Origin: an uncultured Nocardioidaceae bacterium
GTDB lineage: Bacteria > Actinomycetota > Actinomycetes > Propionibacteriales > Nocardioidaceae
Length of the DNA stretch: 64,000 bases
Direction: 5' to 3'
Assembly: GCA_902805855.1 (NCBI GenBank)
Contig: CADCUJ010000103.1
Coordinates: forward strand, 1-64,000
The position numbers and the translations under genes are program-made. A model generated the notes under the pieces. It searched no databases. It worked only from the letters and a program-made list of their open reading frames with translations, and was not told where the DNA came from. Below are positions 30,315 through 40,880 of the stretch, in pieces (within the stretch, counting starts at the first letter, position 1; every line of letters begins with the position of its first letter).

Positions 30315-31634
30315 ATGAAACGCCCAACCCGCGCCTGGCGCATGGCCTCAGCCCTCGCGGCGACCGCGCTGGTGCTGACTGCCTGCGGCGGGGAGACCGA
30401 AACCCCCGCCGGCAACGAAAACACCGACTCCGCCAGCCCGACCGAGGACGAGAGCGGGGGAGACACCGGGGGAGACAGCGGCGCGGTGCCCAAGGGTGAC
30501 GGAACCCTCACCTTCGGAAGCCTGCTGCCCCAGACCGGCGACCTCGCCTTCCTCGGCCCACCGGAGTTCGCGGGCGTCGACCTCGCCGTCGAGGAGATCA
30601 ACGAGGCCGGCGGCGTGCTGGGCAAGGATGTCGCGGAGGTCGACGCCGACTCCGGAGACGGCACGCCCGACATCGCCGGTGCAGAGGTGGACAAGCTACT
30701 GAACGCCAACGCGGACGTGATTATCGGTGCCGCTGCCTCGGGTGTCTCGATCACGGTCATCGACAAGATCACCGGAGCGGGGGTCGTGCACTTCTCGCCG
30801 GCGAACACCGCCGCGGGCTTCGACACCTACGACGACAACGGGCTGTACTTCCGCACGGCTCCCTCCGACGTTCTCCAGGGAGAGATCCTGGCGAACCTCG
30901 CGATCGAGGACGGCCACGACAACATCGCGATCATGGGTCGTCAGGACTTCTACGGCGAGGGACTGTCCGAGCGAGTTCAGGAGGTCGTGGAGCAGAAGGG
31001 CGCCACCGTCAGCGAGTTCGTCCTGTACGCGGCGGACGCGCAGAACTACACCGCCGAAGTAGCGCAGGTCGCCGCTTCCAAGCCGGACGCGCTCGTGCTC
31101 GTCGCGTTCGAGGAGACCACGAAGATCATCCCGCAGCTGATCGCCAAGGGGATCGGCCCGCAGGACATCCAGATCTACTTCGTGGACGGCAACCTGGCCG
31201 ACTACTCCGAGGAGAACTTCGACCTGTCCGGCGTCAAGGGCACCGTTCCGGGCGCTGCTGAGCCGGACCCGGAGTTCATCAAGCGGGTCAACCAGGTGAA
31301 CAAGCCGTTGGACGAGCTGACCTACGCGGCGGAGTCCTACGACGCCACGATCATCAGCGCGTTGGCCGCCATCCAGGCGGGTAGCGACTCCGGCAAGGCC
31401 ATCGGTTCGGAGATCGTCAACGTCACCAAGGACGGCACGGAGTGCACGACGTTCGCCGACTGCGTCAAGCTGCTCGACCAAGGTGAGGACATCGACTACA
31501 AGGGCCCGTCCGGTCCCACCGACATGACCGACACGGGCAGCCTGGTCGCTGGCACCTACGCCATCCAGGAGTACCAGAAGGGCAACACCTACGAGCAGGT
31601 CGACTCTGTCTCCGGTGTCGTTCCGAGCGGCTGA
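30315..31634 (+). CDS. livK: Branched-chain amino acid-type ABC substrate-binding lipoprotein
   Basis: This 439-residue protein has a lipoprotein signal ending in LVLTACGG (Cys24). A low-complexity acidic linker (about residues 29-60) is followed by a type I periplasmic-binding fold, opening with LTFGSLLPQTGDLAFLGPPE. Ligand may be leucine, isoleucine or valine, or another amino acid or amide, since this family is broad. It is the binding protein for the livHMGF genes on the opposite strand, which are convergent and separated by a strong terminator. Confidence 0.9.
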   Translation: MKRPTRAWRMASALAATALVLTACGGETETPAGNENTDSASPTEDESGGDTGGDSGAVPKGDGTLTFGSLLPQTGDLAFLGPPEFAGVDLAVEEINEAGGVLGKDVAEVDADSGDGTPDIAGAEVDKLLNANADVIIGAAASGVSITVIDKITGAGVVHFSPANTAAGFDTYDDNGLYFRTAPSDVLQGEILANLAIEDGHDNIAIMGRQDFYGEGLSERVQEVVEQKGATVSEFVLYAADAQNYTAEVAQVAASKPDALVLVAFEETTKIIPQLIAKGIGPQDIQIYFVDGNLADYSEENFDLSGVKGTVPGAAEPDPEFIKRVNQVNKPLDELTYAAESYDATIISALAAIQAGSDSGKAIGSEIVNVTKDGTECTTFADCVKLLDQGEDIDYKGPSGPTDMTDTGSLVAGTYAIQEYQKGNTYEQVDSVSGVVPSG

Positions 31635-31785: not shown

Positions 31786-32598
31786 TCAGGTCTTCGCGAG
31801 GGTGCCCAGGTAGAGCTCGATGACCTTCGGGTCCTTGGACAGCTCGGAGCCGGTCCCTGTGTAGGCGTTGCGTCCCTGGTCCATCACGTAGCCTCGTTCA
31901 CAGATCTGGAGGCAGCGGCGAGCGTTCTGCTCGACCATCACCACCGAGACCCCTGCGCGGTTGATCCGGCGGGTCTGCACGAACACCTCGTCCTGCAGCA
32001 CCGGCGACAGGCCGGCCGACGGCTCGTCGAGCAGCAGCACGGAGGGCTCGGCCATCAGGGCCCGCCCCATGGCCACCATCTGACGTTCGCCGCCGGACAA
32101 CGAGCCGGCGCGCTGGTTGCGTCGGTCGACGAGAGTGGGGAACAGGCCGCCGACGAAGTCGAAGCGTTTGCGGAAGGTCTTGGGCCGCTGGTAGACGCCC
32201 ATCTCCAGGTTCTCCTGGATGGTCAGGGACGGGAAGACGTTGTTGGTCTGCGGCACGAAACCGATGCCCTTGCTCACCAGCGCGTCCGCCCGATCGTTGG
32301 TGACCTCCTCGCCCCTGAGCCGAACGCTCCCCGAGCTCACCCGGACCAGCCCGAAGAGCGCCTTGAGGAGGGTGGACTTGCCGGCCCCGTTCGGACCGAT
32401 GATGCCGACCAGCTCACCTTCCTGGCAGTAGAGGTCGGCCCCACTGAGGATGTTCACACCGGGCAGGTAGCCGGCCACCAGGTCGTCCGCGCGCAGCACG
32501 GCGCCCTCAGCAGCCTTCAGGTGCTCGCGACGCCCGGGAATCTCGTCCTGACCGGTCGTGTCGATGATGCCGTCGTGCCCGCCGCTGTCGCCGCTCAC
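31786..32598 (-). CDS. livF: Branched-chain amino acid ABC transporter, ATPase LivF
   Basis: This 270-residue ATPase has Walker A GPNGAGKST, signature LSGGERQMVAMGRAL and Walker B VLLLDEPSAGL. The LivF subfamily is shown by the segment VSKGIGFVPQTNNVFPSLT. The N-terminus is about 35 residues longer than usual and polar. It is the last gene of the livH-M-G-F unit and overlaps livG by four bases. Confidence 0.93.
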   Translation of the reverse strand: MSGDSGGHDGIIDTTGQDEIPGRREHLKAAEGAVLRADDLVAGYLPGVNILSGADLYCQEGELVGIIGPNGAGKSTLLKALFGLVRVSSGSVRLRGEEVTNDRADALVSKGIGFVPQTNNVFPSLTIQENLEMGVYQRPKTFRKRFDFVGGLFPTLVDRRNQRAGSLSGGERQMVAMGRALMAEPSVLLLDEPSAGLSPVLQDEVFVQTRRINRAGVSVVMVEQNARRCLQICERGYVMDQGRNAYTGTGSELSKDPKVIELYLGTLAKT

Positions 32599-33563
32599 TT
32601 GCGCTCCTCGGTCTTGGTCGTCCCGGCGATCTCCGCCTCGGCCGCTGCGATGATCTCCTCCTCAACGTCCTCACTGAGGTCCTGGTCGTGGTGCGAGCCG
32701 AGGTAGGCGTCGATCACGCTCTTGTTCGCCATCACGGAGTCGGGCGGGCCCTCGGCGACGATCGTGCCTTGAGCCATCACGATGACCCAGTCAGAGATGT
32801 CGCGGACCATGTCCATGTCGTGCTCTACGAACAGCACAGTGCGTCCCTCGTCACGCAGCGACTTCACGTGGCCGAGCAGGGACTGCTTGAGCGCCGGGTT
32901 CACCCCCGCCATCGGCTCGTCGAGCATCACCAGCTCCGGGTCCGCCATCAGCGCCCGCGCCATCTCCAACAGCTTGCGCTGGCCTCCGGACAGCGACCCG
33001 GCGAAGTCGTTGCGCTTCTTGTCCAGCAGGAAACGCTCGAGGAGCTTGTCGGCCTTGTCGGTGATCTGTCTTTCCTGACCGCCCCATCTCTGGAGCAGGG
33101 CCGAGAGGAAGCGCTCGCCTGACTGACCGGTTGCACCCAGCCGCATGTTCTCCACGACGTGGAGCTTCGCGAGCACCTTGGTCAGCTGGAAGGTACGCAC
33201 CATGCCCATCCGGGCAACCTGGTAGGCGGGGACACCGGACAGGGGCCGGCCGTTGAACGACCAGGTCCCGGACTGCGGCTTGTCGAAGCCGGTCAGCACG
33301 TTGAAGAACGTGGTCTTGCCGGCGCCGTTGGGCCCGATCAGAGCGGTGATCACGCCCCGTTGGATCTCCACGTGCTCGACGTCGACCGCCGTGAGGCCAC
33401 CGAACTGTCGGGTCACGTTGTCCGCGACGACGATCGGGTCGGGCTTGGCAGAGCCCGGTCTGTGGTCGACCTGGTTCAGCGCCTCGCGCGCAGCAGTGCT
33501 GTCGGCCCTGGACCCGTTGCCCGGCGTGTCCCCGGCAGCGGCGGTGGTCTGCTCAGCGGGCAT
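32595..33563 (-). CDS. livG: Branched-chain amino acid ABC transporter, ATPase LivG
   Basis: This 322-residue ATPase has Walker A GPNGAGKTT, signature LSGGQRKLLEMARAL and Walker B LVMLDEPMAGV, with the LivG-type insert between them. The first 45 residues are a polar extension not needed for the ATPase fold, and the C-terminus has an acidic tail (EDVEEEIIAAAEAE). It overlaps livM by eleven bases. LivF and LivG together drive the LivH-LivM channel. Confidence 0.93.
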   Translation of the reverse strand: MPAEQTTAAAGDTPGNGSRADSTAAREALNQVDHRPGSAKPDPIVVADNVTRQFGGLTAVDVEHVEIQRGVITALIGPNGAGKTTFFNVLTGFDKPQSGTWSFNGRPLSGVPAYQVARMGMVRTFQLTKVLAKLHVVENMRLGATGQSGERFLSALLQRWGGQERQITDKADKLLERFLLDKKRNDFAGSLSGGQRKLLEMARALMADPELVMLDEPMAGVNPALKQSLLGHVKSLRDEGRTVLFVEHDMDMVRDISDWVIVMAQGTIVAEGPPDSVMANKSVIDAYLGSHHDQDLSEDVEEEIIAAAEAEIAGTTKTEERK

Positions 33564-34551
33564 CGATCGCCAGCTCCCTTCGGTCCCCGAAGATCCCTTG
33601 TGGTCGGAAGATCATCAACAGCATCAGGCCCAGTCCCAAGAAGATGAACCGCATCAGGCTCGCCTGGGTGGAGGTCATGATGGAGGCCGGGATGAGCGGG
33701 TCGGCACCACCTGTCGCCTGGGCGAAGAAGATGCCGAGCCCGCTGATCAGGAACCAGAAGATGATCGATCCGGCAACCGGCCCGAGCACCCGGGCTGCTC
33801 CACCGATCAGGAGCACGGTGTAGGCGAAGAAGGTGACGTCCGTGGCGAAGAACGACGGTCCGATCGAGGCCGACCTCAGTGCGGTGATGAATCCGGCCAG
33901 CGCGCCGAACAGCCCGCCGAGCATCAGCGCCTGCATCTTGTACGAGTAGACGTTCTTGCCGAGAGACCGCACCGCGTCCTCGTCCTCGCGGATGGACTTC
34001 AGCACCCGCCCCCAGGGACTGCGCATCAGCAGCCAGATGACGACGCAGGAGATGGCGACCAGGACCCAGCCGACCGTCATCACCCAGAAGTCGAAGGCGC
34101 TCCAGGTGACCAGTCCCGGGATGCCGATCGACCCGGTGTAGGGGTTGAGCGCACGGAACGGCTCGATGAAACCGGTCAGGCCGTCCTGGCCCCCGAACGT
34201 GTCCGACAAGGTTGCGGCCCCGATCGACTGCCGGATGATCTCCGCTGCGGCGATGGTCACGATCGCCAGGTAGTCGGCTCGCAGGCGAAGCGTCGGGACA
34301 CCGAGGAGAAGGGCCAGCACGACGGTGAGCAGCAGTCCGGCCAGCGCCCCCAGCCACAGGCTCAGGCCGAGCACGATGGGGAAGGACACCAGTGCGTAAC
34401 CGGCGACCATCATGAAACCGGCCTGCCCGAAGTTGAGCAGCCCGGTGTAGCCGAAGTGCACGTTGAGCCCGATCGCTGCCAAGGCGTAGATGACCGCGGT
34501 AGGACCGAGGGCTGACTGGAGCGAGAGGCTCAGGATGGTTTGAAAGTCCAT
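33553..34551 (-). CDS. livM: Branched-chain amino acid ABC transporter, permease LivM
   Basis: This 332-residue membrane protein has about nine hydrophobic helices. The segment LNVHFGYTGLLNFGQAGFM is the LivM family mark in the second helix region, and GRVLKSIREDEDAVRSLG is the cytoplasmic coupling loop that contacts the ATPases. The length is normal. It starts 16 bases after livH. Confidence 0.93.
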   Translation of the reverse strand: MDFQTILSLSLQSALGPTAVIYALAAIGLNVHFGYTGLLNFGQAGFMMVAGYALVSFPIVLGLSLWLGALAGLLLTVVLALLLGVPTLRLRADYLAIVTIAAAEIIRQSIGAATLSDTFGGQDGLTGFIEPFRALNPYTGSIGIPGLVTWSAFDFWVMTVGWVLVAISCVVIWLLMRSPWGRVLKSIREDEDAVRSLGKNVYSYKMQALMLGGLFGALAGFITALRSASIGPSFFATDVTFFAYTVLLIGGAARVLGPVAGSIIFWFLISGLGIFFAQATGGADPLIPASIMTSTQASLMRFIFLGLGLMLLMIFRPQGIFGDRRELAIDAR

Positions 34552-34567
34552 TGTCGCGTTGCCTTCC

Positions 34568-35941
34568 TCAGCCGACCCGCTGAGCCCTGCCGAGCAGACC
34601 CTGGGGCCTGATCAGCAGGACGATGATGAGTACGAGCAGTGCACTGACGAACTTGAACTCGGCCGGCACGAGCAGGGTGGAGAGCTCGGTCAACAGGCCG
34701 ATGATGAAAGCGCCGACGATGGCTCCCCAGATGGTGCCCAGACCACCGAGCACTGTCGCGGCGAAGATCAGCAGCAGCAGCTTGAAGCCGATCTGGTAGT
34801 CGAAACCCTGGGTGAGGCCGAGGAGCGCACCGGCCAGCCCGGCAAGCGCGGCGCCACCGATCCAGACCAGGTTGATGACACGCTCCACGTTGATCCCGGT
34901 CGCGGAGGACAGCGCAGGGTTGTCGGCGACCGATCGGGTCGCCTTGCCCAGCCGGGTGAACTGGAGCAGCGACGTCACCGCCACAAGCATGGCCATCCCG
35001 ACCAGGGCGACGATGAGCTCCTTGGGTGTGAGCAGGATCGGGCCGATCTCCCATGGCTGGGTGGCTGAGAACTGGGAGTAGTTCCGGCTCTGCGCCCCGG
35101 CGAGGTACTGGTAGACGTTGCGGAGGAAGATCGAGAGACCGATGCTGACGATCATCATCGCGATCACCCCGGTCCCCCGGCGTCGTAGCGGGCGCCACAG
35201 ACCTGCATCGTTCACCCAGCCGAACACTCCGGAGAGCACGAACGCCGCGACGACCGCCACTGCGACAGTGATGTTGATCCCACCGACCCGGATCGCTCCG
35301 GGAAGCTGGTCGACGGCGAAGGCGGCGAGTGCCCCGAAGGTGACGAGCTCACCGTGGGAGAAGTTCGTCAGTCCGGTGGTGCCGAAGATCATCGAGAGCC
35401 CGAGTGCCGCCATGGCGAGCAGGACCGAGAAGACGATCCCGCCCACGAAGAGCTGCGCGGCTTGGACTCCGATCCCGGAACCGGCGCCCTCCGCCGCGCC
35501 GATCGGGAAGGTGACCGACTGGTCGGAGTCCAGGTTGATGGCCACCGTGCGCTCGAGGACCTCCGGCTGGGTGTCCTCCGGCAGACTCTGCTCGTCGATC
35601 CTCACCGTGAACGACTGGCCGAGGTTGTCGATGGCGGTGCCCGGCAGATCGACGATCGCCGTCCCGTCGGCTCCGGTCGTCCCTTCGCCGACGACCTGAC
35701 CGGAGGAGTCCTCGACGATCGTGGTCACGCCCTCGACGGGGGTCTGTGGCTCGTCGCGGCGGTCACAGATCCGGACCAGGATGGAGATGGAGTCGTCGTC
35801 GGTCGCCTCCGGCAGGGCGCACTCTGCGCTGCCCCCTGCGGAGACGCTGGGAACCGCGGCCTGGGCGGACCCGGAAAGGACGACCACTGCGACGAAGAAG
35901 GCGGCGAACAGCGCTGCGATTCGGGTAAGGCCGACGTGCAT
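34568..35941 (-). CDS. livH: LivH permease with an N-terminal extracytoplasmic domain
   Basis: This 457-residue protein is about 150 residues longer than a normal LivH. Residues 1-29 are a signal peptide ending in SGSAQA. Residues about 30-150 form a secreted beta-rich domain with two cysteines (AECALPE and VRICDRR) and the strand pattern SSGQVVGEGTTGADGTAIVD, which resembles Ig-like or CnaB/SpaA folds. The permease then begins at AAQLFVGGIVF and contains GLTNFSHGELVTFGALAAF. GACAGGAG stands before the ATG. The extra domain may dock LivK or sense ligand; that is inference. Confidence 0.88.
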   Translation of the reverse strand: MHVGLTRIAALFAAFFVAVVVLSGSAQAAVPSVSAGGSAECALPEATDDDSISILVRICDRRDEPQTPVEGVTTIVEDSSGQVVGEGTTGADGTAIVDLPGTAIDNLGQSFTVRIDEQSLPEDTQPEVLERTVAINLDSDQSVTFPIGAAEGAGSGIGVQAAQLFVGGIVFSVLLAMAALGLSMIFGTTGLTNFSHGELVTFGALAAFAVDQLPGAIRVGGINITVAVAVVAAFVLSGVFGWVNDAGLWRPLRRRGTGVIAMMIVSIGLSIFLRNVYQYLAGAQSRNYSQFSATQPWEIGPILLTPKELIVALVGMAMLVAVTSLLQFTRLGKATRSVADNPALSSATGINVERVINLVWIGGAALAGLAGALLGLTQGFDYQIGFKLLLLIFAATVLGGLGTIWGAIVGAFIIGLLTELSTLLVPAEFKFVSALLVLIIVLLIRPQGLLGRAQRVG

Positions 35942-35980
35942 GGGTCTCCTGTCGCCTCATCTGGGTCGATGTCTCGCGGG

Positions 35981-36159: not shown

Positions 36160-36918
36160 TCACCGCAGTGCGGCGACGGCGAGGCTCAGCAGCGGTGCCA
36201 CCACCAACGCGGGAAGCAGGTCTCCGACCGGCAGCTGCTTGAGCCGGAGCAGCCGCAGGGCGACGCCGACCAACAGCAGGCCGCCGACGGTGGTCATCGC
36301 GGCGAGCTGGGCGTCTGCGAGAACGTCGCCGAGGGCGGCGCCGAGCAAGGTGAGCGATCCCTGCACGAGCAGGATGCTGATCACGCTCGCACCAACACCC
36401 CAACCCAACGACGCCGCGAAGGCGATCGAGGCGAAGCCGTCCAGCGCGGACTTGAGGTACAGCTGGTCCGCACCGTTGCCCAGTCCCTCGTTGAGCGAGC
36501 CCAGGATGGTCAGCGGCCCGACGCAGAACACCAGTGAGCTCGATACGAACCCCTCGATGAACCGCTGCCGGTCTCTCCGGTTCTCAGCATCGCGTGAGCG
36601 AGCGCGCAGCCGTTCTTGGAGCCAGCCGCCGAAGCCCTCGAGCCGGTCCTCGATCCGCAGCAGCGAACCGGCGATCCCGCCCAGGAGCAGGGAGCCGAGC
36701 ACGATCAGCGTCGGCGCGCTGCTTCCGACCGCACTGGCCCAGTCGGCGTCGGCGACGCGCGCCGCCGAAGTGGCTGCGATGAGCAGGGTGACCAGGCCGA
36801 GTCCGTCGGTGACCACGTCGCGGCTGCGCTGGGAGAGCCGGTGACCGACGCCGACGCCGATCACCGTGCCGACGAGCACGGCGACGATGTTGACCAGCGT
36901 GCCGACTCCAGGGAACAC
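36160..36918 (-). CDS. DUF554 family membrane protein
   Basis: The GTG at 36918 gives 252 residues. The N-terminal GTLVNIVAVLVGTVIGVGVG and the central FIEGFVSSSLVFCVGPLTIL, followed by LKSALDGFASIAFAASLGWG, match the DUF554 family of putative transporters. About seven helices are visible. A purine-rich ribosome binding site, GAGAGGGGG, precedes the start. The function of the family is not established. It is transcribed in the same direction as the liv genes but lies upstream of their promoter. Confidence 0.85.
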   Translation of the reverse strand: MFPGVGTLVNIVAVLVGTVIGVGVGHRLSQRSRDVVTDGLGLVTLLIAATSAARVADADWASAVGSSAPTLIVLGSLLLGGIAGSLLRIEDRLEGFGGWLQERLRARSRDAENRRDRQRFIEGFVSSSLVFCVGPLTILGSLNEGLGNGADQLYLKSALDGFASIAFAASLGWGVGASVISILLVQGSLTLLGAALGDVLADAQLAAMTTVGGLLLVGVALRLLRLKQLPVGDLLPALVVAPLLSLAVAALR

Positions 36919-37072
36919 CGGACCCCCTCTCTACCGCTTCGATGGTGGTAGTCGTACCCTGACGCTCGGACCACCGGGGGGTGGGTCTCGCGGCACGACC
37001 TCAGGCACGCCAAGCGAATCACGCAGCGTGCCGTTGGTCGCGACGCGCCTGAGGACTGAAGGGTGAGAGCCG

Positions 37073-37666
37073 GTGACGCGTAGCTCGGTGCACGTCCGCG
37101 ATGCCAGGCCTGCTGATGCCGCTGCTCTGCTCCGCATCTGGACAGAGGCCTCGCAGCGCGCCGTCGAGCTGCAACCTACCGCGAAGGCGGACGCGGAGGC
37201 GTCCTCCGCGCTGGCGCGGATCGCAGCCGAACCCGACGAGCGTCTCGTCGTAGGGCTCGTGGACGACGACGTGGTGGGCGCGATGCATCTACGCCGAGCG
37301 CCGGTCTCGCCGATCCACAGCGAAACCGCCATCCACGCCAGCTTTCTGCACGTGCTCGACCAGTGGCGGCGCCGCGGGGTCGGCAGAGCCCTGCTGGAGG
37401 CGGCGGTGAGCTGGGCCGAGGAGAAGGACACCACGCACGTCCTGGCAGCCTCGACGACGAGCTCCCGCGACACGAACCGGTTCATGGCGCGACTCGGTCT
37501 GGGCCCGGTGGCGATCATCCGCGGCGCCCCGGTTCACGTGCTGCGAGCGAAGCTGCCCCGGGAGGTGCCCGCGGGATCGCGCGGAGGTACCCGTTCGCAC
37601 CCCCAGCTCAGCCGGGTCCTGGCGCATCGCCGCTCTCAGAGGCGGCGGGCAGCAGGACGCACGTGA
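37073..37666 (+). CDS. GNAT family N-acetyltransferase
   Basis: This 197-residue protein has the GNAT fold. The acetyl-CoA site is WRRRGVGRALLEAAVSWAEE, with the usual R-x-x-G-x-G/A pattern, and the following strand carries an Asn near TNRFMARLG. The substrate is not evident. The last 35 residues are basic, look unstructured and run 59 bases into the convergent thioesterase gene, so the true end of the folded part is near residue 160. GAAGGGTGAGAG precedes the GTG. Confidence 0.75.
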   Translation: MTRSSVHVRDARPADAAALLRIWTEASQRAVELQPTAKADAEASSALARIAAEPDERLVVGLVDDDVVGAMHLRRAPVSPIHSETAIHASFLHVLDQWRRRGVGRALLEAAVSWAEEKDTTHVLAASTTSSRDTNRFMARLGLGPVAIIRGAPVHVLRAKLPREVPAGSRGGTRSHPQLSRVLAHRRSQRRRAAGRT

Positions 37667-38111
37667 TCCGCGCCGTACACACGCGTCTGCCCTGCTCGTC
37701 GCTGACCACGACTTCGTAGCAGGTGCTGGAACGGCCCAGGTGCACCGCCTGCGCGACGCCGGTGACCACTCCGTCTCTGGCCGAGCGGTGGTGGGTCGCG
37801 TTGATGTCGACGCCGACCGCGACCCGGTCGGGATGAGCATGGATCGCCGAGCCGATCGATCCCAGGCTCTCGGCGAGCACGACGGACGCGCCACCGTGGA
37901 GCAGGCCGTAAGGCTGGGTGTTCCCCATCACCGGCATCGTCGCCACGAGGCGGTCCGCCGAGGCCTCCACCAGCACGACCCCCATCTTCTCGTTCAGCGC
38001 ACCCATCGCGGAGCCACGGAGGAACTCGGCGGTGTGGCCGGCGTCGGTCTGCTCGGTGTCGGGGTGCTCGGTGTCGGGGTGCTCGGTCCCGTCGGGGTGG
38101 GCCTGGTGCAT
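37608..38111 (-). CDS. PaaI-type hotdog thioesterase
   Basis: The ATG at 38111 gives 167 residues. The core has PYGLLHGGASVVLAESLGS, the HGG motif with catalytic side residues of the PaaI/4HBT hotdog family, and VGVDINATHHRSA typical of this branch. The substrate would be an acyl-CoA. The first 28 residues are an acidic, His-rich repeat (EHPDTEHPDTEQTD) encoded by 15-bp tandem units. It is convergent and overlapping with the GNAT gene and divergent from polA. Confidence 0.82.
   Translation of the reverse strand: MHQAHPDGTEHPDTEHPDTEQTDAGHTAEFLRGSAMGALNEKMGVVLVEASADRLVATMPVMGNTQPYGLLHGGASVVLAESLGSIGSAIHAHPDRVAVGVDINATHHRSARDGVVTGVAQAVHLGRSSTCYEVVVSDEQGRRVCTARITCVLLPAASESGDAPGPG
38051..38080 (-). 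repeat. 15-bp tandem repeat in the thioesterase gene
   Basis: Two perfect 15-base units (38051-38065 and 38066-38080) plus a degenerate third encode the EHPDT repeat near the N-terminus of the thioesterase. Confidence 0.85.
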
Positions 38112-38158
38112 GCGGTCATTGTGGTTCACGTGGACTGAGCATGGTCGGTGGGGCGGGC

Positions 38159-38164
38159 TAGGGT
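38159..38164 (+). promoter_or_regulatory. -10 element of polA (leaderless type)
   Basis: TAGGGT lies seven bases before the GTG at 38172 and overlaps the alternative upstream GTG at 38163, so it decides the start. Confidence 0.5.
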
Positions 38165-38171
38165 GATCTCC

Positions 38172-40880
38172 GTGCCAGACCAGCCTGCAGCCCAGCACGA
38201 GCCACCGGGGCAGGGCCCCCGGCTCCTCCTGCTCGACGGCCACTCGCTGGCCTACCGGGCCTTCTTCGCGCTGCCGGTGGAGAACTTCTCGACCACGACG
38301 GGCCAGACCACCAACGCCGTCTACGGCTTCACGTCCATGTTGATCAACGTGCTGCGCGACGAGCAGCCCACGCACGTCGGCGTCGCGTTCGACAAGTCAC
38401 GGCAAACCTTCCGGCTCGAGCAGTATGCCGACTACAAGGCCAAGCGGAACAAGACACCCGAGGAGTTCAGCAGCCAGCTGCCGCTGATCAAGGAGGTGCT
38501 CGATGCGCTCCGGATCAAGCACCTCGAGGTCGAGGGCTACGAGGCCGACGACATCATCGCCACGCTCACCACGCAGGCGACGGCCGAGGGCATGCAGGTG
38601 CTGGTCTGTTCCGGTGACCGGGACGCCTTCCAGCTCGTCGACACCTTGACCACCGTGATCTACCCGATGCGAGGCGTCTCGGAGATGAAGCGGATGACGC
38701 CGGCTGCGGTCGAGGAGCGCTACGGCATCCCGCCGTCGCGGTACCCCGAGATGGCGGCCCTGGTCGGCGAGACCTCGGACAACCTGCCCGGGGTGCCCGG
38801 GGTGGGGGAGGGGTACGCCGCCAAGTGGCTCAACCAGTTCGACGGCTTGGACAACCTGATCGCACGCGCCGATGAGATCACCGGCAAGAAGGGAGAGTCG
38901 CTGCGCGCGCACCTGGGTGACGTGATCCGCAACCGCCAGCTCAACCGGCTGGTCTGTGACATCGCTTTGCCGGCCACGCCGACCGACCTCGTTCAGCAGC
39001 CGTGGGACCGCCACGCCGTGCACACGCTCTTCGACAGCCTCGAGTTCCGCGTCCTTCGCGACCGGTTGTTCGAGACGCTGAGCTCCGAGGAGGACGTCGA
39101 GCAGGGCGGCTTCGAGCTCCAGGGCACCCACCTCGCCGAGGGTGAGCTCGCGGACTGGCTCAGGGAGCACGCCGTGGCGGGCCAACGGGTCGGGCTCCAG
39201 GTGCACGGCAGCTGGCGATCCGGTGCCGGTGACGTGCACTCGCTCGCCCTGGCCACGACGGACGGAGCGGCGGCGTGGGTCGAGGTGGAACGGCTCGGTG
39301 CCGAGGACGACAAGACGCTTGCGGACTGGCTGGGCGACCCGTCGTACCCCAAGGTGATGCACGACGCGAAGGGTCCGATGCTGGCGCTGGCCGCACGCGG
39401 GTGGCAGCTCACAGGTCTCGAGCGCGACACCGCGCTCTCTGCCTACCTTGCCCGCCCGGACCAGCGCTCCTATGACCTGGCGGACCTCACCGTGCGCTAC
39501 CTCAAGCGAGAGCTGCGCAGGCAGGAGGAGGACCCGGGCCAGCTGAGCTTCGAGTCGGTGCTCGAGGACAGCGCCGGCGACAGCTGGATGCTCCAGGCGC
39601 GTGCGGTCCTCGATCTCGCTGCCGCGCTCGACCAGGAGCTCGAGGACCGCGGCGGCACCCGGCTGCTCGGCGACGTGGAGCTGCCGCTGGTGCTCGTGCT
39701 CGCGGAGATGGAGCGGATCGGCGTCGCGGTCGACGTCGCGCACCTCGAAGCCCTGGAGGCCGAGTTCGCAGGCGGGGTGAAGAAGGCCGCGGACGAGGCG
39801 TTCGACGTGATCGGCAAGGAGATCAACCTCGGTTCCCCGAAACAGCTCCAGGTGGTGCTGTTCGAGGAGCTGGACATGCCGAAGACCAAACGCACGAAGA
39901 CCGGCTACACGACCGACGCCGACGCGCTGCAGCAGCTCTTCGTGAAGACCGAGCACCCGTTCCTCCTCGCGCTGCTGCGTCACCGCGATGTCTCCCGGCT
40001 CCGGCAGACCGTCGAAGGGCTGCTCAAGACCGTCGCCTCCGACGGCCGGATTCACACCACCTTCAACCAGCTGATCGCGGCCACCGGCCGGCTCTCGAGC
40101 ACGGACCCCAACCTCCAGAACATCCCGATCCGCACCGAGGAAGGCCGTCGCATCCGCGAGGCGTTCGTGGTCGGCACGGGGTATGACTCGCTGATGACCG
40201 CCGACTACAGCCAGATCGAGATGCGGATCATGGCGCACCTTTCGGAGGACGCGCTGCTGATCGAGGCGTTCAAGTCCGGCCGCGACTTCCACGCGGTGAC
40301 CGCGGCCCGCGTGTTCGGTGTGGACGCCGACGCGGTGACTCCGCAGATGCGCGCCAAGATCAAGGCGATGAACTACGGACTCGCCTACGGCTTGTCCGCG
40401 TTCGGCCTGTCCAACCAGCTCGGCATCGAGACCGCCGAGGCGCGGGCGCTGATGGAGGAGTACTTCGAGACCTTCGGCGGCGTGCGCGACTACCTCGCCG
40501 GGATCGTCGAGGAGGCCCGCAAGTGCGGGTTCACCGAGACGATCATGGGTCGTCGTCGGTACCTGCCGGACCTGACCAGCGACAACCGGCAGCGCCGGGA
40601 GATGGCCGAGCGGATGGCGTTGAACGCGCCCATCCAGGGTTCGGCGGCGGACATCATCAAGGTGGCCATGCTCAAGGTCGACGAGAGCATCCCTGCGGCG
40701 GGCCTCGAGTCACGGATGCTGCTGCAGGTGCACGACGAACTGGTGTTCGAGGTGGCCCCAGGTGAGGGGGATGCGCTGGAGGCGCTGGTGCGCCAGCAGA
40801 TGGCCGCGGCTGCAGAGCTCACGGTCCCACTCGACGTGTCGGTGGGCACCGGCCACAGCTGGCACGAGGCGGCCCACTAA
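38172..40880 (+). CDS. polA: DNA polymerase I
   Basis: This 902-residue enzyme has an N-terminal 5' nuclease (LLLLDGHSLAYRAFFALP, then YEADDIIATL and CSGDRDAFQLVD). A middle domain with the 3'-5' exonuclease fold has lost the Asp-x-Glu motif, as is usual in actinobacteria. The C-terminal polymerase has motif A DYSQIEMRIMAHLS near 677, motif B RAKIKAMNYGLAYG from 727, and motif C QVHDELVFEV with H854 and D855. It fills gaps in repair and removes RNA primers. Proofreading is therefore not expected. Confidence 0.96.
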   Translation: MPDQPAAQHEPPGQGPRLLLLDGHSLAYRAFFALPVENFSTTTGQTTNAVYGFTSMLINVLRDEQPTHVGVAFDKSRQTFRLEQYADYKAKRNKTPEEFSSQLPLIKEVLDALRIKHLEVEGYEADDIIATLTTQATAEGMQVLVCSGDRDAFQLVDTLTTVIYPMRGVSEMKRMTPAAVEERYGIPPSRYPEMAALVGETSDNLPGVPGVGEGYAAKWLNQFDGLDNLIARADEITGKKGESLRAHLGDVIRNRQLNRLVCDIALPATPTDLVQQPWDRHAVHTLFDSLEFRVLRDRLFETLSSEEDVEQGGFELQGTHLAEGELADWLREHAVAGQRVGLQVHGSWRSGAGDVHSLALATTDGAAAWVEVERLGAEDDKTLADWLGDPSYPKVMHDAKGPMLALAARGWQLTGLERDTALSAYLARPDQRSYDLADLTVRYLKRELRRQEEDPGQLSFESVLEDSAGDSWMLQARAVLDLAAALDQELEDRGGTRLLGDVELPLVLVLAEMERIGVAVDVAHLEALEAEFAGGVKKAADEAFDVIGKEINLGSPKQLQVVLFEELDMPKTKRTKTGYTTDADALQQLFVKTEHPFLLALLRHRDVSRLRQTVEGLLKTVASDGRIHTTFNQLIAATGRLSSTDPNLQNIPIRTEEGRRIREAFVVGTGYDSLMTADYSQIEMRIMAHLSEDALLIEAFKSGRDFHAVTAARVFGVDADAVTPQMRAKIKAMNYGLAYGLSAFGLSNQLGIETAEARALMEEYFETFGGVRDYLAGIVEEARKCGFTETIMGRRRYLPDLTSDNRQRREMAERMALNAPIQGSAADIIKVAMLKVDESIPAAGLESRMLLQVHDELVFEVAPGEGDALEALVRQQMAAAAELTVPLDVSVGTGHSWHEAAH

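Follow-up and report, generated by a model that had tools for sequence, protein, structure and literature searches.

The LivH-type permease encoded in the 64,000-nucleotide stretch of Nocardioidaceae DNA that we analysed (the window) carries an additional exported domain ahead of its permease core, and we confirm that this fusion is real. It makes fused LivH a conserved variant of a well-known importer, and apparently an undescribed one: our search covered the open-access literature and found no description there of a LivH-domain fusion.

The fused gene and its N-terminal extension

The gene and its parts are laid out as follows.

34568-35941, minus strand: fused LivH-type permease gene, 457 amino acids, ATG start (open reading frame; BPD_transp_2 match, E 1e-40)
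35946-35950, minus strand: Shine-Dalgarno-like AGGAG, 4 nt 5' of the LivH ATG (upstream sequence)
35855-35941, minus strand: signal peptide, about residues 1-29, ending SAQA-A, probably of SPase I type (judged by eye)
35498-35821, minus strand: exported beta-sandwich domain, residues 41-148, SdrD-B/CnaB/transthyretin-like, with the C41-C59 pair (domain model, structural and Pfam relatives, cysteine parity)
35471-35497, minus strand: short linker, residues 149-157, to the first permease helix (low pLDDT at 151-154)
34571-35470, minus strand: LivH permease core, residues 158-457, BtuC-like transmembrane fold (BPD_transp_2; VIA-align)

The earlier coordinates of the gene were correct, enclosing one uninterrupted reading frame of 457 codons from the ATG, which is preceded by a good Shine-Dalgarno site (AGGAGACCC-ATG; in its longer context, GACAGGAGACCC-ATG). 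The protein runs from a hydrophobic signal-peptide stretch with its SAQA-A end, through a tail bearing C41 and a beta-rich domain containing C59, across a linker and into a complete permease, of which BPD_transp_2 (PF02653) covers residues 166-441 at 140 bits against a gathering score of 26.8. It is the sole LivH-like match within the 2.64 Mb genome. The signal peptide was assigned from a modelled helix at residues 2-25, low model confidence at 24-39 and an n/h/c pattern that is preserved across orthologs.

The roughly 150 residues that precede the core are conserved at the protein level, both in 45 aligned orthologs and in 150 distinct fused sequences; across the 45, identity of the domain to the window copy ranges from 69% down to about 18%. 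Close pairs aligned gap-free give the domain a dN/dS of 0.14-0.47, which indicates purifying selection (the core gave 0.05-0.24 over the pairs listed; a pair whose domain was misaligned, giving a ratio of 2.6, was left out). The mature domain contains either no cysteines or two, with no exception in the 45-row ortholog set, and such pairing is what is expected of extracellular disulfides in an oxidising outer compartment. Six or seven odd counts in the 150-sequence sets all come from cysteines in or before the hydrophobic signal-peptide segment, into which the domain cut had been extended. A few relatives (L009 and L011, for example) have the second cysteine elsewhere in the chain, and the number is still paired.

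An annotation artefact, in which the true start would be the beginning of the permease core and everything before it untranslated or a separate frame, could draw on an in-frame GTG at codon 166 and an ATG at 177. This start is already contradicted by the conservation of protein sequence over the 150 orthologs, purifying selection, the conserved signal peptide, the cysteine parity and the Shine-Dalgarno-preceded ATG, and we reject it as extremely improbable. No separate upstream reading frame for the domain was listed in unfused relatives at the loci examined. The original prediction of a translated LivH with a signal peptide and an exported domain at its N-terminus is therefore well supported by the conserved protein sequence, the preserved n/h/c pattern and the start site. 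It had described about 120 beta-rich, cysteine-containing residues; the beta structure and the cysteines (C41, C59) are there, but the domain proper is shorter, nearer 100 residues (about 50-148).

Fold of the exported domain

AlphaFold2, run on the 45-row alignment, modelled the whole protein at a mean pLDDT of 83.4, with strands at residues 53-60, 73-77, 83-88, 94-98, 110-115, 130-134 and 141-147; in this model the first permease helix begins at 157. Predicted by itself, the domain forms a confident beta sandwich over residues 53-147 (mean pLDDT 91.9). VIA-align places this model closest to SdrD B (Z 11.2), a Bacillus anthracis TIE protein (11.1), CnaB2 (10.0) and the transthyretin-related YedX (9.9). 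Searching the PDB with the sequence profile of the domain brought up the same surface-protein modules, at weak scores that still exceeded noise (E 1.8e-07 and 6.8e-07), and 43 of the 45 members touched the Pfam family CarboxypepD_reg at E up to 0.1. The window domain itself stays below every Pfam gathering score, the best being bMG3 at 16.3 versus 34.9. On the strength of the model, then, the domain is predicted to belong to the SdrD-B/CnaB/CarboxypepD_reg prealbumin-like fold, and the CnaB- or SpaA-like strand pattern that had been read from the sequence was right as a description of that fold.

With SdrD B, CnaB, SpaA and transthyretin the LivH domain shares both the fold (Z about 10-11) and a YTV..D...LP.G sequence pattern. 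It differs from them as a single copy on an ABC permease, without a cell-wall anchor. The window copy also lacks any lysine, so that a CnaB-type isopeptide bond is not possible there; 49 of the 150 orthologous domains lack lysine as well. The near-invariant positions are G93, P121, V69, G81, P100, L120 and G148. Judged from the alignment, these glycines, prolines, valine and leucine at turns and in the core look structural rather than like a polar binding site.

The importer cassette, its spread and the origin of the fusion

Fused LivH lies at the head of a cassette whose other genes in the window are these.

33553-34551, minus strand: LivM-type second permease, without the extra domain (BPD_transp_2, E 3.1e-42, residues 19-276 of 332)
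32595-33563, minus strand: LivG-type ATPase (ABC_tran and BCA_ABC_TP_C)
31786-32598, minus strand: LivF-type ATPase (ABC_tran)
30315-31634, plus strand: LivK-type substrate-binding lipoprotein, convergent with the cassette (Peripla_BP_6, E 1.9e-33; lipobox LTAC)

With two permeases, two ATPases and a LivK-type binding protein, a gene content found complete in the window and in the cassettes of relatives, it qualifies by gene content as a complete importer of the branched-chain/hydrophobic-amino-acid type (HAAT). The nearest solved relatives of LivK are Leu/Ile/Val-type binding proteins, a resemblance that suggests a putative substrate class from sequence alone. The LivH core aligns with BtuC over 256 residues (VIA-align Z 16.2, rmsd 4.7). 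It reaches 134.6 bits against the LivH equivalog NF008011 and 140.1 bits against the UrtB equivalog TIGR03409, the best-scoring NCBIfam model for the core, and misses both curated cut-offs (379 and 250.3, respectively). E. coli LivKHMGF, the HAAT system of NF008011, has the same permease core, LivM partner, two ATPases and LivK-type binding protein; the window cassette differs in its extra exported domain and in a LivK gene that is convergent rather than first in the operon. UrtB, the urea importer permease, is the model that the core scores best against, but its 291 positions begin at LivH residue 162 and contain no such domain. No known RNA or riboswitch was found near the cassette at Rfam gathering scores. 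The neighbouring region (36160-40880) encodes a DUF554 protein directly upstream on the minus strand, a GNAT acetyltransferase, a 4HBT thioesterase and polA.

The domain profile finds matches in 196 of the 395 genomes sampled from the class and in 73 of 138 genera (E 0.001); one large family contributes weak matches that are likely to be domain proteins of no relation, and the true share is somewhat lower. When a full-length profile was run against the phylum, proteins scoring above about 390 bits nearly all had the domain, whereas those below 300 bits begin at the permease core. A scan with the single protein returned almost only actinobacteria. For viral contigs, the domain profile offered no sufficiently conserved stretch. 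At all of 100 further loci the domain lies within the LivH reading frame with LivM adjoining, always in a livH-M-G(-F) cassette; most of these loci came from searching the class with the domain profile, and the last 25 from searching the phylum with the full-length profile. Among the other loci, one whose domain region is masked as N (L056) was left out of the fused/unfused judgement. We rejected the possibility that the fusion is peculiar to one genome on account of the matches across class and phylum. The same fusion is present in other actinobacteria, and its absence from all relatives, which would have spoken against it, is not borne out. Nor is it the exception to ordinary LivH that it had been taken for: fusion is the standard state of LivH within a single large actinobacterial clade, which lessens the surprise.

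In 117 of the 120 loci that have LivK, its gene lies downstream of the cassette and converges on it, as it does in the window (30315-31634 against 31786-35941), whereas the usual operon places livK first. This recurrent layout indicates that the permease, its domain and LivK stay associated. Five loci (L145, L147, L148, L149 and L157) have a split cassette, in which livH-livM and livK-livF-livG lie on opposite strands and face each other. At another (L168:1141-2829) LivH has two domain-profile matches, apparently from a tandem duplication.

In a tree of 171 permease cores, built by a quick method and with long branches at the outgroup, the 150 fused proteins and one unfused protein (L122) form a single clade (SH-aLRT 99), and only two changes are required, one gain and one loss. 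The unfused member (L122:6968-7975) passes from a signal-peptide-like start straight into the permease, without the beta-sandwich domain; it is a secondary loss, a natural deletion with the cassette retained, and its signal-peptide-like start fits an N-out permease. The best explanation is that a transthyretin/SdrD-B-like domain joined LivH once, early in actinobacterial history.

Candidate roles of the domain

The signal peptide would export the N-terminus and leave the domain outside the membrane, on a short linker immediately before the first permease helix; this outside location and rigid placement are suggested by the signal peptide, the cysteine parity and the linker, whose length from the domain end to the equivalent of G168 has a median of 18 residues among orthologs (quartiles 18-21.75). 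C41 and C59, where present, would form a disulfide pinning the N-terminal tail to the first strand. So placed, and rather than sensing a ligand, the domain could serve as a fixed shoulder beside the outer opening of the two permeases, guiding the LivK lipoprotein as it docks or holding it steady. There is a partial precedent in MalF-P2 of the maltose importer, an extra extracytoplasmic folded region of a permease that contacts MalE (PMC3150292). However, P2 is inserted between helices of a different permease family and is not N-terminal with its own signal peptide, and we use it as an analogy only. By that analogy we tentatively favour docking as the most likely role, ahead of an assembly aid and then a contact with the envelope.

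We count for docking the unbroken fusion at the further loci, the convergent LivK, the single clade, the short and mostly constant linker, the confident fold and the zero-or-two cysteines. The stretch between the lipid-anchored Cys of LivK and its domain also points weakly that way, with a median of 34 residues in fused cassettes (n=113) versus about 23 in unfused ones (n=12), uncorrected for kinship. Against docking we count the lack of LivK-specific coevolution, the fast drift of the domain, its structural-looking conserved residues and the loss in L122 with the cassette kept. In a comparison of distances over 91 complete cassettes, with the other subunits controlled, domain and LivK gave a partial Mantel r of -0.155, and 997 of 1000 permutations were as high or higher; the test is weak and indirect, since short, fast-evolving domains make poor mirrors, and it lends docking no support. 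The proposal that the domain holds LivK accordingly found no backing in the LivK distances or in the near-invariant residues.

The same drift suits a second role. A signal peptide followed by a fast-folding exported domain might force N-out insertion of the first helix and protect the complex without contributing directly to transport. The domain does evolve faster than the core (median p-distance 0.677 versus 0.486) and keeps only core and turn residues; after control its distances follow the LivH core only (partial r 0.292, the same 91 cassettes), and L122 lost the domain yet retained the signal-peptide-like start. However, sister unfused LivH proteins do without the domain, and its retention in nearly all of the clade suggests more than generic help, so we regard an assembly aid as a serious but less probable alternative to docking.

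We think it unlikely that the domain is an envelope contact module that binds peptidoglycan or another surface polymer and keeps the importer in place. Its closest folds are indeed stalk modules of surface proteins in Gram-positive bacteria, but a single domain on a short linker (two copies at the L168 locus) implies a small reach, and a conserved surface motif was not seen. The remaining idea, that the domain is a ligand sensor gating the permease, takes up the ligand sensing of the original prediction and now seems very improbable. The domain does sit beside the channel, and transthyretin-fold proteins are able to bind small molecules; yet transthyretin pockets lie between the subunits of the tetramer, and the near-invariant positions offer no conserved polar or aromatic pocket residues.

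Returning to docking, it is tempting to speculate, though we would rate it rather doubtful, that HAAT importers in a large branch of the actinobacteria employ an outside LivH domain, permanently attached, as one element of the docking or gating cycle with a membrane-anchored LivK. Such a way of coupling binding protein and permease would be one that has not been described for this permease family. To curated models the protein is an ordinary LivH or UrtB and its extra domain goes unnoticed, even though roughly half of the genomes sampled in the class have domain matches. Should the domain take part in transport, it would offer a natural way into the question of how, in bacteria that lack an outer membrane, a lipid-anchored binding protein locates its permease. 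Should it play no part, the clade and its one natural loss still show that LivH tolerates an exported N-terminus.
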